Of a stretch of DNA of 64,000 nucleotides, positions 38,639 to 48,901 are shown piece after piece. Origin of the DNA: Caulochytrium protostelioides. Its lineage: Eukaryota; Chytridiomycota; Caulochytriomycetes; Caulochytriales; Caulochytriaceae. Within the stretch, counting starts at the first letter, position 1. Each line of letters begins with the position of its first letter. The notes under the pieces were generated by a model. That model was not told the DNA's origin and ran no database searches. It saw only the letters and a program-made list of their open reading frames with translations. Location: positions 62,001 through 126,000 of the forward strand of contig ML014152.1 in the NCBI GenBank assembly GCA_003615045.1, written 5' to 3'. Both the position numbers and the translations under genes were made by a program.

Positions 38639-41600
38639 TTACTGGAACACGTCGTCGGCGTCGACCTCCCCTTCGCCGTCGGCCGGCACCGCCGCCGCGG
38701 AGGCCGCGGGCGTCGAAGCGCCCGCCGGCGCCGCGGCGGCCTGCTCGGCGCGGCTGAACTGCAGGAAATGGTTCGGCCGGTGGACCTCGTGGTAGAAATC
38801 CTTGGGCACGTCGGGCTCGACGGCGCACGCCACATCGCCGCGGAACCGGGTGCCCATGAAGTTGTAGTTCCAGCAGCCGTCGCCTTCGGGCACGTAGAAG
38901 CCGCCCGCGAAGCGGTCGCTGAGCAGCGTCTGGACACGCTCGTAGTAGCGCGTTGCGTAGCCTGGCGGCTGGACCGACAGGTCCTTGTTCGCGCGGCCCC
39001 ACTCGTACCCGGCCGGCGTCAGCTTGTACGAGGACAGCGTGACGCTGCCCGGCGTCAGCGAGACCGTCGTCACGATGCTGCGGTCGCCGTCCCAGACGCC
39101 CTTGTGCTGGTGGAGCAGCTTGGCGTGGCTCGTGACCGTGATGGCCGAGAGCTGCGGGAGCTCCTGCATCTGCGTATGGAGCCACCCGAGCGGCTCGAGG
39201 TCCTGCAGGCCCGGGTGCTGCGGCAGCGTCTGGGGCAGCTGCACGTGCTGGTGGGAGCCAAGCTGCGGCACCAGCACGATCGCGACGATCTCCTTGATGG
39301 TCGCGTGCGCCTCGCCCCCATCGGCATCGGCGTCGGCGGGGCGCCGGCCGTACATGAACGCGCCAATCTGGGTGCGCAGATCCGCGATCTGGACGAGTTT
39401 GACGACCAGATTCTTGGGCAGCACGTAGGTATACCCGTGCTCCGCCACATCATCCGAGACGATGTAGATGTGCTGGGTGCGCAGGTGGAGGTGCGCGGCG
39501 GCGAGGGCGCGGGCGCGCCAGTCGGTCTTGGACGCGAAGGTCTGCCGCTCGTAGCTGCTCGTTGTCGTCACGAGCATGTCCTCGCCGTGCACGTTGCGCA
39601 GCTGCGTCGTCGTCGCCGTGAGCTGCGCCCCGCCGCTCTGGCCGGCCTGCTCGCTCTGCTGCTTCTCGAGCTCCGCCATCTGCTGGCGCTGCAACGAGGG
39701 CGCCGAGATCTCCATGCCGAGGATGATGTCACGGATCTCGGACGTCGTCAGGCTCGCGACATTGACGTTGTTCTTCTTGCCGTAGTCCTCCAGGATCAGG
39801 TCCTTCAGCTGGACCTCGACCTGCACCCACTCCTCGTCCGTGAAGCTCGGCCAGATGTGGTGCGGCTCGGTCACGACGGACTTGTCGGGGCGCAGCACGA
39901 TCTTGGTCCGCTCGTTGTTCACGTGCAGCGCGCGCAGAATGAGGATGAGGCGCGAGAACGCGGTATAGGCGCTGATGGTCCCGAGCCAGTCGTCGTACAG
40001 GTTGTACAGCACCATCTGCGGCTCGTTGGCCTTCAGGATCATGTCGCCAAACTTCTCGATCTTCAAGCATGCCTGGAAGGGCAGCTGCAGCTCGGAGCCC
40101 TTGATCGAGATGTTGGGGAAGTCCAGGCAGTGCGTCTCCAGCGGGTCAAGCATGCCCTTGCGGGTCACAATGAGCTGCTTGGGCTGCTCTTCGACCGGCA
40201 GCGAGCGGATCAGCGCCGCGGTTTCCTCGGCCGTCTTCCACTTCGCGAGCTGGCCGAGGCGCTTCTGGCCCGACCAGACGCTGGTATGGATGATCTTGAG
40301 GAAGAGCTGACCGGAGCGCGGGTTGAAGATGAAGATGGCGCCGTTGATGGCCTTCGTGTTACCGACGATGAGCGGCCGCGACGCCTCGAGGACGGCGCCG
40401 TCGCCCGCACGGCGCTTGATGACGCGGCGGAACATGATGTTCTGCCCAGCCGTGGGCACGGTGACACACCACACGACGCCGCGGCGCGTCCCGCGCGTAC
40501 ACGCGTCGGCCACGCGGACCGTCGGCTCGGTCATCGCGCGGTCCAGCGCGTAGTGCACGTCCCATCCCGATGTCGACGGCGCGGTCGCCGGCACGAACGT
40601 CGTGCTGTACCCGGCATGGAGGCCGAGGCGCTGCACGTCGTCGCGGAAGCGCAGCGACGCCGTCGGGACCGCGCCGCTGGCGGCCGACGCGGGCTGCCCG
40701 CTGAGGCTGTGGAGCAGCAAGCGCAGGCGGCGGCCGTCGAGGTGGGTCCACACCCACGCGGGCAGCGGGCGGTCCTCGTCGGAGGCGCCGGACGCGAGCA
40801 GCGCCCACCACGCCGGATGCGTGATGGTCCACGTGCTGTCGGAGCGCACGAGCGACGGCGCCGGCAGCACGCGCACCAGTCGCGCGAACAACGGCGACAG
40901 CGCCGTATTCGTCGCCGCCGCCGGGAGGTGGATGCTCTGCGCGTCGACATCGAGGGTCGCGTGGCGCCGGACGAGACCATAGAGCATGAGGACCGCGTCG
41001 GCTTCGTCGTCGCTGGCGACGCCGAGCGCGCGGATCGCCGGCAGCTGGAGGATGGTCGCGGCGGGCGCGACGACGCCGTGCTCGAAGCGGGCCGTGAACT
41101 GCGCTGCCGTCGAGGGGTCCTGCTCGCCCGCCGCATACACGTCGCCTGCCGCGTGGTGCGTGAGCGGCGGCGGCGTCGATGTCGACGTCGACGTCGATGC
41201 GGCCGAAGCCCACGGCGCCTCGCGGGTGTGCGCGCCCAGCCGCAGCCACATGCGGTGGTTGGCGGTAGGCACGAGCGAGATGTCGGGCGGCGCCAACGGC
41301 AGACCATCGTTGTCACTGGCGGCGGCAGCAGCAGCGCCCGTCTTTTGGGTCGGCGCGGCCGTGTCAATAGCAATGACCTCGTGCTCCTGGTCGGCGCTGA
41401 TGGTGACGTCCGCGAGGCCGATCGGGTGGTATTCGAGGCGGCCGTGGACCCAGCACGCGACGGAGAGGGTCGCGTGGCCGGCGGCGAAGTGGGCCTGCAC
41501 AGCGGCGAGGTCCATGAACCCGTGCGCGGTGAGCAGCTCGTGGTCGTCGGCGGGGAAGCAAGTGAGGTTGCCCTCGAACGTCTTGTGGATGGTGACGCGG

Positions 41601-44600
41601 TAGACGTTCGTGTCGTCAATGAACCAGACCGTCCGGTTCGAAAAGAGCTCGCCGTAGTTCTGGCTATTCAGATAGGGCTCGGTAGGCTCGGAAGAGTAGA
41701 GCTGGAGCCCCTTGCGGATGCGCTCACGCAGCACGTAGAGCGCCGGGTTGGCCTTAATCATCTTGGCCATTGCCTGCTGCATGAGCGGCTTCAGCCCTGG
41801 GAACCAGTTGCCGTACGCCGCGTAGATGTTGTACGCGAGGTCAACGCCGACCATGAGGCCCGTCGGCGACGGGTAGATGGACAGCGCGTCCGTCGTGTAG
41901 TCGAGGAACTTCGAGCGCGTGTAGCGCTCGATGTCGTGGCTGTTGCCCATCCAGATGGGCCGGCTCGGTGCGACAGTGTCGCTCCCGCCGCGGCGCACCA
42001 GGATGGTGTGGTGCGGTGGGACCGTGACACACCACACGCGGCCTTCGTGGACGCTGGCATGCAGATGGGACCGCGGGACCTTGGCGGTGCCGCGGGTGAC
42101 TTTGAGCCAGACGTGCCAGGCTGCCGCACGCGCGTGCCCAGACGCGGAGGGCGATGCCGCGACGGGCGCGAAGCGGACACTGTAGCCGGCATGGAGACCG
42201 AGGTGGGCGAGGGCATCGCGGGCCACCGTCGAAGCCGCGACAAGGGGCTCCGTCTCGGGCGCGGTGCCCATGGCGGTCTGCATACCGGCGAGCACGGCGC
42301 GGCTCTCGTCGCGCTCGAGGCGGTCGAGGACCCACCGCGGGATGGGCTTCGCGAGGCCGCGGGCGCCCTCGACGGGCGTGGCGCTCGCAGGTGCGATGGC
42401 CGCGAGCGCGTGGCGCCACCGCGTCCACGTGGGGCCGCACAGCGCAAGTGCGTGGCCGTCCGGGTGGACGACCCAGTCGAGGCCCTGGAAGCCGTCGAGG
42501 ATCTGGAGGCGCCGCGTGAGCTCCTCGAGCGGCTGTGGCCCGCCGACCGTGAAGATGCACGCGCCGCGGCCGAAGCCGGGCGGCGCTCGATCGGTCTCAC
42601 CGGTCGCGTCGGCCGCGTCGCCGTCGTCCGACGCCACGTGGGAGGGACTTGCGAGCCAGTAGCCGAGGATCCAGAGGAACGTCGTGAGGCGGCGACCGCG
42701 GCGGGACTGCGGGGCTTGACGGCCGTCGTGCGCGGGCATGTAGTACGGCAGCTGCTGCAGGAAGGCGTCGTCGTGTAGGATGCGGTGTCGATCGGGCAAG
42801 AAGCCGTCGCCGGCGCGCGGCCCGAAGCAGACCGCATCGCTGGCGTCAACCGCCAGGAGCGCGCTTGCCGGCGACAGCGTGAATGGTTGCGCCTCCTGCG
42901 GGCCCGTGTCCCGCGTGTACAGCATGCGGTGGTTCTGTGTGACACGGAACGCGACCGCGTGCGGCTCATCGGTCGACGCGGGCGAGCGGTCCACGCAGTC
43001 GACCATCGGGAACGCGCCGTGGTGGACCAGCACCGTCTCGATCGGACGGTAGACCAGCCGCCCCGGCTGGTACGGATCCATCGTGGCCGCTTCCACCGGA
43101 TGCGGGTGGCCGCGGACGTCGTAGGCGTGCCGGTCGGGCGTGACGGCGAGGCCGTAGTGCGCGACCAGCTGCCGGAGGCTGCGCCACCCGTCGCGCGTGA
43201 GCAGCTCGTGGTCGTCGGTCACGCAGTCGTAGTCGCCCCAGCGCAGCTGGATGTCCAGCCAGAACTTCTGCGTCGTGAGGTCGTCGAAGCGGTCCTGCGT
43301 ATCCGCGAGCAGCGAGGGCCGGCTGACGTTCCACTTGTACGCGGCAAACAGCAGGATGTCTGACGCGCTCGAGTTCATCTTGTAGCTCTTGCGCGGGTGG
43401 ATCGTTTCCTTCTGGACTGTGTCGATCTCGAGCGCCTCGAGCTCCTGGTCCAGGATCTGGCACAGGTCCATCGTCAGCGACTCGTGGATCTTCTGCCACA
43501 AGTGCGCGCGGAAGATCTGGATCAGCGAGATCTTCAGCGTCGGAATCTTGCCGTGCATAAAGATGCCCGTCAGGTCGAGCTGCACCTGGAAGCCGACATA
43601 GACGTTCGACCGGTTGATCGTCGGCGACCACCACAGCGTGAACCGGCGGTTGGGGATCTGGTTCAGACCCGAGCGCTGCGCGTTCGTCAGCTTCTTGAAC
43701 TTCATGCTTTCCTCGAACCCGCTGTTGTGCAGCACGAGCCCGTCGTGTCGCAGGTACAGCTGGTCGACGTTCACGCGGAACCCAGCCCACGCCGTCTCGT
43801 GCGTCTCTTGGACGATCGCGCAGATCGCCACGTGACGCTGTGGCTTCGTGCCAGACGGCGACGCCGTGAACAGCCGGTATTGGCTCTGCGCGGCCCGGTC
43901 GAGCGCAGCAAAGGCGGCGGCCGTCATAAAGACTGCGCCGGCGGGCACGTTGCTGTTGACACTGCCGTCGCCATCGTGCCCAGGATCGCCGTCGACCACA
44001 CGCACCAGGGCGAGGATGTGGTTGCCGGTCACGACGAGCGCCTCGTCGGGGTCTGGCAGCGTCAGGCGGAAGAGGCGCTCGCGGCCGCGGACGAGGTTGA
44101 ACGCCACACGCGGCGCGCCGTCGGGCCCGAGCAGGCGTTCGCCCGCCACGACGTCCTCGACGCAGACCACGCTGCCGTCGTGGCGCAGCAGCCGCGTGCC
44201 GTACGCGAGACAGGCCTTCTCCCAGAAGAGACCCTGCCACGTGGGGAAGTAGGTACCGCGGAAGAGCGTGTGCTCCAGGATGACCTCGACACCGCCGAGT
44301 GCCTGAATGATGTCGGTGCGGTAGTTGTTGAGGTTCCAGAGCTTGCCGTCCATCTTCTGGTGGGTCCAGTAGAACGGGTTGACTTTCAGCAGCTGGTACT
44401 GCTTCCACTCGGTGCGGATGCGCCAGCCCTTGTCGTATGCGAGCGTGTGCCGGTCCTTCGAGAACAGGGTGTTGATGCGCGGCAGGCCGCGGTCCCAGGC
44501 GTCCTCGAGGTCCTCGAGCGTCAGGCGTCGGTTCTGGGCATTCGCTTCCTGACGCTTCTGCGCATACTCGGCCCACACGCGCTGCGAGTCGAGGAACTCC

Positions 44601-47600
44601 GACTCCCACGGCTGGATGTAGCGGTACAGGTTGGGGATCACCTGGTCGGCATCGTGGCTCATGCCTGAGCGGAAGTGCGAGATGCCCGTCTCGGTCTGCT
44701 GACTCCACCGCAGATCGCTCTGCGGGATGAGCACGTGGCCCATCGAGAGCATGCCCAGGCCGCCGAGCTCCTTGGGCGCATAGAACACGACCGGCGGGAA
44801 GCGCGACGGCATCTTACTGTTCAGCCCGATCTTGACGCGCGTCTGGATCTTGTTCTCCATCTTGACGAGCAGGTCCAGCAGCTCGCGGGTATGGATGACA
44901 GCCTCGCGGAAGTAAGTCATCAGCCCGATGAGGCACGTGTTCCACTTGTTGACAATCTTGGTGAATGTCGTCGCGCCGGAGGCCATCAGGATCTGCCGGA
45001 TGCGGTTATGGAACCGCTGCATGCTGTCGGCGTCGACGCGCAAGAAGGCCTGGGCGGTGCGCTCCTTGTTGCGCTGGTTAACGAGGTTCCAGACCCCGTC
45101 GTTGAGGGTGAACCCGCCGGGCTCGTGGCGGCACTTGGGCAGGATGCGGACCTCGAACCCGCACATGCTGAACAGCAGGTTGGGGTTGTCCGCCGAGTAG
45201 ACGGAGACCATCGTCTTGTCGGTCCACTCGATCGTGGTCAGAGACCGCGGCAGCCGGTTCTTGATGTCCCAGAACACGGCGCGGCCCAGGTTCACGTCGT
45301 GCTTCATGAGGCGCATGCGGCAGTCCCGCGGCCAGCACTTGCGGTTCGGGTAGCCCACCACGTTCGCGTGGTTCGGATCCGGATGCTCCGCCAGATAGCG
45401 ATGGGTCAGGTCGGCGACCTCGTCGGCATCGAGCCGCAGGAACATGTGGATGCGGTCGTTGTAGCGCTGGTACAACCGGATCGGGTGGCACGTCTCGGTG
45501 GCGACATCGGCGAACTGGAGGAAGTCGTTCGGGGCATCCGGAGGGCCTGCGAGCTCCGCGGCGCGCGGAAGCCCCAGCAAGAGCAGGTCAATGACCAGCC
45601 CGTAGTACTGGAAAAGGAACGAGCCGAACTGCAGACCGCGAATCAGACCATACGCGTTCACGTGGCTCATGTCCTTGTAGCTGAGCACGATGTTGTTCTT
45701 GGCGGTCATGTAGTCGGCGAGGTTGTGGTCCATCACGAGGCGCAGCAGGCGGTTAAGCAGCGTCAAGTCGATTTTGTCGTGGATGCGGGCGAGGTTGGTC
45801 TCCAGCATCACGTTGCACTCGCCGTGCGCGGTCGTCCACACGTCGTCGAGGTTGTTGATGCCCTGGCACCACTTGTAGACCAGCAAGGGCGCGGGCTCCT
45901 GGTCGCTCGGCTTGACCCACGACGGGAACAGTTGCCGCAAGTCCGCTTCATACCAGAGGTACTGGTCGAGATACGCGTCCGTCATCTTTTCGAGCGGCTC
46001 GATGTCGTAGACGGGGATAAGATGCGAGTACAGATCCATGAACTCGATCTGGACCTCTTTGAACGCGCGCTGCTTCAGCAGTGCCGTCTTGATGCGCGCA
46101 AGCGCCTCGTGCGGGTTGTCGTACGCCTGCTCGATCAGCGCCATCTCCTCGCGCTGGCTCTGGTTGAGGCGGCCCTGCACGCTGTAGGCCTCCTTGAGCC
46201 GCTCGAGCGTGAGGATCAGCAGCTTCGTGTCGTGCTTATACCCGAGCGGGGGGAACGGGATGGGTGCGAACCGGCGGCTCTCGAGCCAGTGCACCATCGT
46301 GCGGTACACGGCGATCGCCTCGTCCGGCGAGACGTACGGCCCGTCCTTCACGTAGTTCGCCTGCGCCTCCTGCTCGGCCTTCAGCCAGAGCCGCGTGAGG
46401 CGGCCGAGGTTCTTCTTGCAGACCGTCTTGTCGACCGTCGCGCCCTTCTGGATGCGCTCGCGGTTGTAGTGCGCGTCCTTGGCCCACCAGTCGGCCTTCG
46501 CCTTGATGTAGCGCAGAATGAGGTTCTCGATCGGCGCCGGCATGCCGTGGACCTTCCACGGCAGATTCGCGCGCCACGACCGCCACGCCTCCGACAGGTG
46601 CTGCAGGATTACGCGCGACTTGTTGGCGCGCATGCCTTCCGGCATCATGTCCAGGATGTCCATCATCACCGAGGCGCGAAGCTCGAGATCGTAGTGGGAT
46701 TCGACGCGCTGCTTGGTGACCGTTTTGGCGACGCTGCCCGCGTTGCGGGACGCGCCCTCGAACTGGCGCGAAAGCATGTTGCCCAGCCAGCGCTCGAGCA
46801 GCGGCAGGATGCCCCGCAAAAAGAAGAGCCAGACGCGCCACCCGGGGGCCCAGAACCCGACGCCCGGGCCTTTGCCGACGGCGCCCGTGTTAAACCGGTG
46901 GTAGATCACATGCTTGAGGTCCTTGCACATGCGGATCTGCCGCATGAGCTTGTACTTGTACCGGTACATGCCGGTGAGTTGCCCGACGTGCGCAAAGGTA
47001 TACTGGATGCCGTCTGCCAGCTGGAACGCGTCAATGTTGCCCAGACGGTACTGCACGTGGGTGTCCACAACGAGCTTCATCAGCCGCAGGATTTCGCGCT
47101 GCAGATGAAACGCGTTGCCAAACCGCGACTTTTTGCGCTCCTTCGTGGTCAGCGTGCGCGTCGGCTTCAGGTTGAAGTTGTAGTCGAGGTGCAGGTATGT
47201 GAGGTTCTTGCGGTGGATCAGCAGGTTCAGCATGTTGTGGCCCTGGCGGCAGAGCTGCAGCCCGGCCTCGACCCAGTCCAGTTCCGTCGACTGGAAGAAC
47301 TTGGTCGCGCGCAGCTGCGTCAGGAGTGATCGCTTACTCTGCGCCGCGGGGCGGCGCCGTGTGAGTTCGTTGTGGACCCAGCTCTTCAGCAGCTTCTGGT
47401 AGGACACGCGCACCTTGACGGGCAGGCCTTCCGGGGCGCGCTCGAGGTACCACTGGTGGATGAGGGGCACGTCCTGCGCACGCCGCGTATACCCGGTGCG
47501 AGTGTTGAACGGGTGCGGGGCCCAGTAGAGCTCGAGCCCACCGAGGGTGTTGGGTGTCGACAGCGGCGTCGCGCTGAGCATCGGCTTGACCACGGGCGGC

Positions 47601-48901
47601 AGTTCCATCAGGACGTCGTTCTCGTCGTTCTCGTCGTCGTTGAAAGCCGCGCCTTCGTGGTCAAAGGCGCCGGCATCGAGGTCGCGCGAGGAGATGGGAT
47701 GGATCGCCGGATCATACAGGAACGGCTCCGCGTCGGGATCGTCGTTGACGGCGAGCACGCTCGCCGGATAGCGGTAGGGCGCCACGTGGACCGCGCGCGG
47801 TCGCGCGTTGTAGAGGAACGGGTAGGCGACCTTGTACTCGGTCCGGAGCGGCTGACGGACAATGATCTTGCGGATATCGTTGAACTCGTTCCAGTCGTCG
47901 TCGACATCGACGTCGCGGTAGAGCGGCTCGAACCTCGGCCCGCCGGGCAGCGCCATGTTGAGCGCTTTGGCGGTAAAGAAGCTCTGCTTATCAAAGAGGT
48001 AGGTAAAGTTGGGGTCGCGCACCTCGCTCAACAAGGGCCGCGACAGCCGGTGGAGCGCGGCCATGACGGGCAGCTCGAGCTGCCACCGCCGGTACGACGA
48101 CCCGTTGACCTGGTCCGAATCGTCGAGTGCTTGGTGGTCATAGAACCACTCGTGGACCGCAGCGTCCTCCTCCTCGTCGAGCTCGAGCTGGATCGGCTCG
48201 AGCGGGTCGACATCGATGAGGTTGTCGCCGTAGTCGAGGGGCGGCTCCTCGTCGTCGAAAGGGGGGAAGCGCATCCGCTTAAAATGGCGGCGGTCGCGCT
48301 TCTCCTTGCGCATCATAATCCACATCGAGGCCCACTGGGCGATATAGTGGGGTTCGATCACGCGCGGCACGTTGTTGACGAACGTGATGGCGCCGGCCAC
48401 GTGGTACAGCACGGGCACGTCGCGCACCTGCTCCCACGGCATCGGCATGTTCTCCAGCAGCTTGAGCACCGCATGCGGCATGTACTTCAGCGCGCCCAGG
48501 TACACGCGCTTGTCGTGCGTGAACTTCTTGTTGCTCATGTCGCCGTGGTCCTTGATGATCTTGCGCAGGTGCTCCGGCGGGAGATCGACCTTCTCGGTCG
48601 CGACGAACCCGGCCTTCTTGCGGGTCGCATACCGCTTCGCGTTGAGGTTGCGCCACTTCTGGGACCGCGCGGCGAGCACGTCGGCTGGCAACAGCGCCGC
48701 GGCGGGCGGGGCCATCCCGGGCGGCGGCGCTGGCCGCTTGCCGAGGGCGCGCATGCCCGGCGGCGGCGGCGTCATGCCGGGCGGCGGTCCCGTGGCCGCG
48801 GCGGCGCGGTGGCGCGACGGGCGTCGCGTTGTGGAAGCGCCGTGGCCGCCGTCGGCATGGCGGCGGGGAGACCCGGCGCGGCCGCCCCGTGGGGCCACCA
48901 T
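38639..48901 (-). CDS. PRP8: Pre-mRNA-processing-splicing factor 8 with three inteins
   Basis: One uninterrupted exon of 3420 codons, ATG 48901 to TAA 38639 (an upstream TTG is ignored). Removing the inteins leaves 2428 residues, the usual Prp8 length. Prp8 is the U5 snRNP scaffold that cradles the spliceosome active site. Order: Pro/Met-rich N-tail ([12 protein letters not shown]), N-terminal domain ([15 protein letters not shown]), reverse-transcriptase-like core, linker, endonuclease-like, RNase H-like and C-terminal Jab1/MPN-like domain (EFYHEV-type stretch appears as [15 protein letters not shown]). Identity to the family is very high, for example [20 protein letters not shown]. The exteins join perfectly at each break: WEKA/SGFEES, WGDYD/SHDIERY and FEGNLT/TKAING. 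Inteins occupy precursor residues 1564-1726, 1893-2320 and 2448-2848. All three must splice for a working spliceosome. Flanked on both sides by HSL-type hydrolase genes. Confidence 0.98.
40358..41560 (-). mobile_element. Prp8 intein 3 (401 aa, decayed LAGLIDADG domain)
   Basis: Starts [15 protein letters not shown] after FEGNLT and ends LIVGN before Thr of TKAINGAIF, inside the RNase H-like domain. Blocks: Cys1, block B PTANH (98-102), block F VVWCVTVP (362-369) with FRR, block G GN|T with a Thr nucleophile at +1. The central region has [13 protein letters not shown] (about 191) and [13 protein letters not shown] (about 278) where LAGLIDADG helices would be, without the catalytic Asp. An Ala-rich and a Ser/Thr repeat inflate the loops. 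Shares DDHELLT, Tx[19 protein letters not shown] and ASRP with intein 2, so the two have a common origin. Confidence 0.93.
41942..43225 (-). mobile_element. Prp8 intein 2 (428 aa, decayed LAGLIDADG domain)
   Basis: Starts [14 protein letters not shown] after RWGDYD and ends WMGN before Ser of SHDIERY, inside the endonuclease-like domain. Splicing blocks are present: Cys1, block B VTQNH (residues 95-99), block [17 protein letters not shown] (397-412), and terminal GN|S in place of the more common HN|S. The central part (about 175-340) keeps the two-helix outline of a LAGLIDADG homing endonuclease, [12 protein letters not shown] at about 183 and [11 protein letters not shown] at about 310, but the Asp that closes each motif is not there. 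It is therefore probably a fixed, non-homing intein. Related in sequence to intein 3. Confidence 0.93.
43724..44212 (-). mobile_element. Prp8 intein 1 (a-site mini-intein, 163 aa)
   Basis: Begins with Cys ([14 protein letters not shown]) right after WEKA and ends LVLHN before Ser of SGFEES, the site occupied by the classic fungal Prp8 intein. Block A Cys1, block B VTGNH (residues 61-65), block F around YLRHDGLVL and block G HN|S are all intact, so it should be splicing-competent. At 163 residues it has no endonuclease domain, only a short acidic/Gly loop (about 72-92) where one sits in larger alleles. The sequence [23 protein letters not shown] follows the Aspergillus/Cryptococcus-type Prp8 intein closely. 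Confidence 0.95.

Follow-up and report, generated by a model that had tools for sequence, protein, structure and literature searches.

The PRP8 gene of Caulochytrium protostelioides, located on the minus strand at positions 38639..48901 of the window (a stretch of 64,000 nucleotides (nt) from contig ML014152.1, positions 62,001 to 126,000, assembly GCA_003615045.1), raises the question of whether three inserts in its reading frame represent inteins, removed from the protein, or introns, as which they are treated in the public gene model, and of what the answer would mean for the maturation of the spliceosome core protein Prp8. All positions given for features of this gene refer to the window and to its minus strand.

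The PRP8 precursor and its three inserts

PRP8 was found to represent a single open reading frame (ORF) without internal stops over 3420 codons, encoding a precursor of 3420 amino acids (aa) in which seven Pfam families of Prp8 were identified (PROCN, PRP8_domainIV, PRO8NT, the U6- and U5-binding families, RRM_4, and PROCT). A search of the 20.9-Mb assembly with a 230-aa extein piece as query yielded one PRP8 locus. Three inserts, intein 1 (43724..44212), intein 2 (41942..43225), and intein 3 (40358..41560), account for 992 residues of the precursor, and the remaining mature Prp8 of 2428 aa is intact throughout its exteins and agrees with other Prp8 proteins. Each of the inserts features the residues of a class 1 cis-splicing intein, namely Cys1, a block B motif (TGNH, TQNH, and TANH, respectively), a terminal Asn, and Ser, Ser, or Thr at the +1 position; the penultimate residue is His in intein 1 only, the other two having Gly.

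At all three inserts, the exteins rejoin exactly to conserved Prp8, and the joints sit in conserved segments of the protein. In the alignment, the +1 residues correspond to yeast Prp8 positions 1579 and 1745 (Ser) and 1872 (Thr), the latter after extension of the alignment by one residue, and to human positions 1507, 1673, and 1800. In yeast Prp8, residue 1872 belongs to the RNase H-like domain and lies in its beta-finger. The Prp8 proteins used for comparison were the best 120 of 2877 matches, ranked by likeness to the extein segment that separates intein 2 from intein 3, and are not a sample of all eukaryotes; they include the public model of the same gene, leaving 119 others. Sites 2 and 3 were uninterrupted in 119 out of these 119 proteins and site 1 in 118; the remaining protein, from Allomyces arbusculus, carries an intein at site 1. 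Since the GC content of the sequence is 69%, openness alone is weak evidence (the chance of encountering no stop under a mononucleotide model is 0.047, 0.0019, and 0.0029 for inteins 1 to 3), and it is homology together with the exact joints that decides.

Taken together, the three inserts are supported as in-frame inteins with exact joints in PRP8, and we infer that all three would be excised from Prp8. To this extent the preliminary description of the locus proved accurate: the precursor length, the intein total, and the three locations were recovered from the ORF and the joints, Cys1, the TxNH block B, the C-terminal Asn, and Ser/Thr at +1 were read directly in the sequence of each insert, the extein joints it called perfect were exact against conserved Prp8 in all three cases, and the approximately 2430 aa given for mature Prp8 compare with the 2428 aa computed after removal of the inteins.

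Family affiliation of the inteins

Intein 1 is a mini-intein of 163 aa without an endonuclease domain (Cys1 ... HN|Ser; block B, TGNH, residues 62-65, 44018..44029). It matched PF05203 (E 7e-9) and, from end to end, the Cryptococcus Prp8 intein 6mwy (E 6.6e-30), and the match to this solved intein identifies the Hint fold; the Sporothrix Prp8 intein is 53% identical. Of the 68 proteins matched by intein 1, 65 carry an intein at the FWEKA|SGFE joint, while the other three are Coemansia records. Judging by its Ala/Ser insertion joint and by its closest relatives at the same site, intein 1 can be assigned as an allele of fungal PRP8-a, located at site a. The joint in Cryptococcus is presumably at the same residue as FWEKA|S of Caulochytrium. 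PRP8-a of Cryptococcus neoformans (PDB 6mwy) shares the mini-intein architecture, but its block B features a cysteine (C61) where intein 1 has Val, and it lacks the two co-resident inteins that intein 1 has in Caulochytrium. In PMC6805012, site a is described as the common fungal Prp8 intein site, Val as the commonest residue at the C61 position, and copper inhibition as not needing C61. A horizontal transfer of intein 1 from ascomycetes is not claimed; in a tree of 65 site-a inteins, it appeared on a long branch in an unresolved fork with Pezizomycotina.

Inteins 2 and 3 were assigned, by sequence comparison, to a second family that also includes the ThrRS intein and the first RPB1 intein of the same genome, inteins of Coemansia Prp8, and, as more distant relatives, inteins of phages. 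The label GN, coined in this analysis, denotes these phage-type inteins with Cys1, VWCVTVP in block F, and a Gly-Asn end. Intein 2 (428 aa, Cys1 ... GN|Ser) contains block B (TQNH) at residues 96-99 (42929..42940), LAGLIDADG motifs at residues 186-194 (ILGYWLASP, 42644..42670) and 312-320 (LAGMQTAMG, 42266..42292), and, according to family alignments, the C-terminal splicing blocks F and G (VWCVTVP ... WMGN) at 41942..42073. In intein 3 (401 aa, Cys1 ... GN|Thr), the corresponding features are block B (TANH, residues 99-102, 41255..41266), LAGLIDADG motifs at residues 193-201 (LYGLVRRHA, 40958..40984) and 283-291 (LHSLSGQPA, 40688..40714), and blocks F and G (VWCVTVP ... LIVGN, 40358..40480). 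All four LAGLIDADG motifs, whose positions were chosen by eye from the alignment, are degenerate, with the catalytic Asp being replaced by S and M in intein 2 and by H and P in intein 3. An intact motif pair was found in none of the three PRP8 inteins, and inteins 2 and 3 do not qualify as homing endonuclease-bearing; their endonuclease regions are eroded and contain alanine- and serine-rich stretches.

The ThrRS intein and the first RPB1 intein matched each other with E 2e-36, and the ThrRS intein matched PRP8 intein 3 with E 2e-24. In contrast to PRP8 inteins 2 and 3, both retain Asp in both LAGLIDADG motifs. The RPB1 member (L017 ORF, 477-921) ends in Gln (VGQ|S), whereas the PRP8 inteins end in Asn. 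Inteins of phage type (from IMG/VR contigs L025 and L026/L030, from mycobacteriophage, and from other records) matched the GN family in an hhalign comparison (99.6%); common to both are Cys1, followed by a block A of the form (E)-x-LT, a block F that contains Cys, and the Gly-Asn end. They form a clade apart from the fungal members, as a tree of ten GN inteins separated six fungal from four viral-contig inteins (split support 100/99). In the same tree, the Prp8 inteins of Caulochytrium and Coemansia grouped together with moderate support (85/89), intein 2 being a long branch of unsure position. With intein 2 as the sole query, a protein-database search yielded 7866 candidates and none at E ≤ 0.001; the ThrRS intein found no match among phage sequences (tblastn, E 0.01), and the first RPB1 intein and that of the Pol III-like largest subunit (RPC1) found no relative in the viral scans. 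Two GN-family inteins were observed within one protein on viral contig L025 (2887-5697), the gene being, as we take it, ThyX-like.

Inteins in Coemansia Prp8 and in the Caulochytrium genome

The preliminary description had regarded three inteins in one Prp8 as exceptional, and here its reading, which stood as to the three exactly joined PRP8 inteins, was weakened. The three Coemansia records matched by intein 1 are Prp8 proteins of 4155 to 5001 aa, namely P0186 (4787 aa), P0187 (5001 aa), and P0188 (4155 aa), with five (2404 residues), six (2680 residues), and five (2335 residues) complete inteins, respectively. Several inteins thus occur in one Prp8, as in Caulochytrium, and three are no record, because the Coemansia proteins carry five or six. 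Their intein sites are at mature positions 600, 671, 774, 932, 1374, and 1601; in P0186, an intein also lies near 1562, close to site a, with divergent sequence downstream. Furthermore, the start of P0188 resembles, weakly and below the cut-off, the C-terminal end of another intein.

None of the six Coemansia sites corresponds to Caulochytrium site 2 or 3. The inteins at position 671 are members of the GN family; in the compared set, the closest relative of intein 3 is the one in P0187 (35%, 417 aa). This kinship and the grouping in the ten-intein tree indicate that the GN family probably moved between Prp8 sites. Inside the GN-family intein of P0188, residues 374-419 resemble a homeodomain (PF00046, E 0.0046, below the cut-off) and are perhaps a DNA-binding part of its endonuclease. 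According to Green et al. (2019, PMC6805012), the Prp8 sites b-g likewise represent independent invasions at different conserved points; nine distinct sites (three in Caulochytrium and six in Coemansia) stand here against seven published letters, and sites 2 and 3 may coincide with some of b-g. A single search of the open-access literature for inteins of Coemansia found no paper on them, nor was one found for Caulochytrium. Only the plant MutS study PMC12292046 contained both words, and it uses intein and Coemansia in unconnected passages.

In total, at least 13 inteins in ten genes were identified in the Caulochytrium genome, the searches giving lower bounds. PRP8 carries three of them and RPB1 two, and one each was found in RPC1, RPB2, TrpRS, IleRS, ThrRS, VMA1, eIF5B, and a gene for a large membrane glycosyltransferase. 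The names of the nine genes other than PRP8 are assignments made in this analysis, based in part on Pfam domains, and their extein boundaries were set by eye against homologues. Asp is present in both LAGLIDADG motifs of four out of the 12 larger inteins (ThrRS, the first of RPB1, TrpRS, and VMA1), and an intact endonuclease Asp pair is therefore missing in nine out of 13 (eight of the 12 scanned plus mini-intein 1). The second RPB1 intein and the RPC1 intein occupy a homologous site, with an identity of 86% at the protein and 92% at the DNA level (dN/dS 0.28); being far more alike than the exteins of the two genes, which agree in about 37% (913 aa) and 32% (408 aa) of residues, they suggest recent intein movement between polymerase paralogues. 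Both (RPB1, L017 ORF, 1263-1678; Pol III-like, L016 ORF, 916-1334) display non-canonical termini, with Ser1 and an Asp end (VVKD|T). The 484-aa intein of the glycosyltransferase gene (G000:C4:67029-68480; L043 6030-7481) interrupts a membrane protein of very large size that includes a glycosyltransferase domain, and it has relatives in the inteins of IleRS and TrpRS. PF14528 did not match the genome at E 0.001, though single ORFs hold weak matches, and a candidate at C45:116695-116946 (E 0.011, one stop) was left out of the count. For comparison, a 2018 survey (PMC5784728) gives three inteins as an example for a fungal genome.

Origin of the PRP8 inteins and meaning for Prp8 maturation

With high confidence, the locus is best explained by a 3420-aa precursor with three cis-splicing inteins that underwent homing invasion, endonuclease loss, and entrapment and that would leave a 2428-aa Prp8. 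The three excisions would follow the standard route via Cys1, the block B His, the C-terminal Asn, and the +1 Ser or Thr. Inteins 2 and 3 were most likely mobile homing elements on arrival, after which endonuclease activity would have been lost from the copies in PRP8; they may have been kept since Prp8 would be damaged by any removal that was not precise. In this view, the inteins are selfish elements trapped at residues of high conservation, and three protein-splicing events would be necessary for Prp8 maturation. There is sound reason to expect that spliceosome assembly requires these events, the dependence arising by entrapment; regulation is possible, but superfluous as an explanation.

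Several observations weigh against this explanation. Gly instead of His precedes the last Asn of inteins 2 and 3, and neither intein matched Pfam or NCBIfam models at E values up to 1. A GN-family profile found nothing among PDB sequences at E ≤ 10, and its comparison with the canonical inteins of the same genome reached 34% over 17 columns only, that of the viral-contig GN set 42%, both below confidence. The AlphaFold model of intein 2 (pLDDT 41.6) was too poor for use, with no useful Foldseek match, and the Hint fold in intein 3 was recognized from a model with a mean pLDDT of 53.8 and a Foldseek match of only E 0.009. Moreover, according to the genome paper (PMC6784888), the assembly was made from amplified single cells, and the public gene model, possibly resting on evidence beyond this analysis, calls the inserts introns.

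Among the alternatives, a joint stress gate, an idea raised in the preliminary description, survives best but is unlikely; here, protein splicing would stall under oxidation or exposure to metals, and pre-mRNA splicing would halt until recovery. In PMC6805012, Cu and Zn are reported to inhibit the Cryptococcus PRP8-a intein, Cu also in vivo and mainly through Cys1. Cys1 is present in all three PRP8 inteins, the splicing motifs are kept with the endonuclease motifs degenerate, which would fit retention for function, and multi-intein Prp8 occurs in at least one other lineage. However, the case is built on the intein of another organism, entrapment predicts the same features, and nothing singles out PRP8, because ten out of the 13 inteins reside in other genes and nine lack the intact Asp pair. 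It is very unlikely that Prp8 intein stacking is recurrent and selected, with the GN family moving among sites (2, 3, and Coemansia 671) and its endonuclease-dead members forming a joint maturation checkpoint; if true, transcription (RPB1, RPB2, and Pol III), pre-mRNA splicing, tRNA charging, and initiation would all await protein splicing.

It is also highly improbable that one or two inteins are non-splicing and retained, or that the locus is a pseudogene or an assembly chimera. Such a reading could draw on the eroded endonuclease regions, Ala/Ser-rich stretches, and penultimate Gly of inteins 2 and 3, and on the single-cell origin of the assembly. However, Cys1, TxNH, Asn, and the +1 Ser/Thr survive in all three inteins, an unspliced insert of 160 to 430 aa in a conserved Prp8 segment should be harmful, the exteins are whole and match other Prp8 proteins, and one PRP8 locus was found.

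Removal of the segments as introns, which the preliminary description had named as the outcome that would speak against inteins, is indeed asserted by the public model CXG81DRAFT_11192 (P0002; 2398 aa), which starts at precursor residue 63, is 100% identical in the extein, and lacks precursor residues 1567-1727, 1906-2321, and 2468-2850. GT...AG cuts at 43722..44204 (483 nt), 41940..43187 (1248 nt), and 40352..41500 (1149 nt) reproduce this model exactly. Its joints, however, are ragged: the first keeps the intein residues CLA and loses a conserved Ser, the second keeps 13 intein residues (12 in the multi-Prp8 residue table as opposed to direct comparison, while the gap count of the multi-Prp8 comparison gives 0 at this site owing to the way the model aligned) and loses a conserved Ser, and the third keeps 20 and loses a conserved Thr-Lys, the pieces left behind being block A of the inteins. 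All three lengths are multiples of three and stop-free in the PRP8 frame, and within 30 nt, no cut pair with the GT-AG or GC-AG ends of a spliceosomal intron restores the extein exactly at any of the three sites. No transcript support for introns is known, since the genome paper, in its main text, uses none of the terms 'RNA-seq', 'RNAseq', 'transcriptom', 'cDNA', and 'ESTs'; the word 'intein' is likewise absent there. Given the ragged joints, the lack of a canonical exact cut, the in-frame multiples of three, and the uninterrupted relatives, we conclude that the public PRP8 model is in all likelihood wrong and that spliceosomal introns have a negligible probability here.

The stacking of inteins and the presence of the GN family in nuclear genes are new, so far as the open-access literature shows. 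Prp8 forms the spliceosome core, and on the evidence its maturation in Caulochytrium would proceed only via three protein-splicing reactions, two of them performed by a little-described family undetected by Pfam and NCBIfam models. Since a public model cut three inteins out as introns, fungal intein counts may be underestimates. The 13 or more inteins of this single nuclear genome, together with the five or six of Coemansia Prp8, provide a dataset for studying the spread of inteins between sites within a gene, their movement between phages and fungi, and the question of inteins as parasites or regulators.

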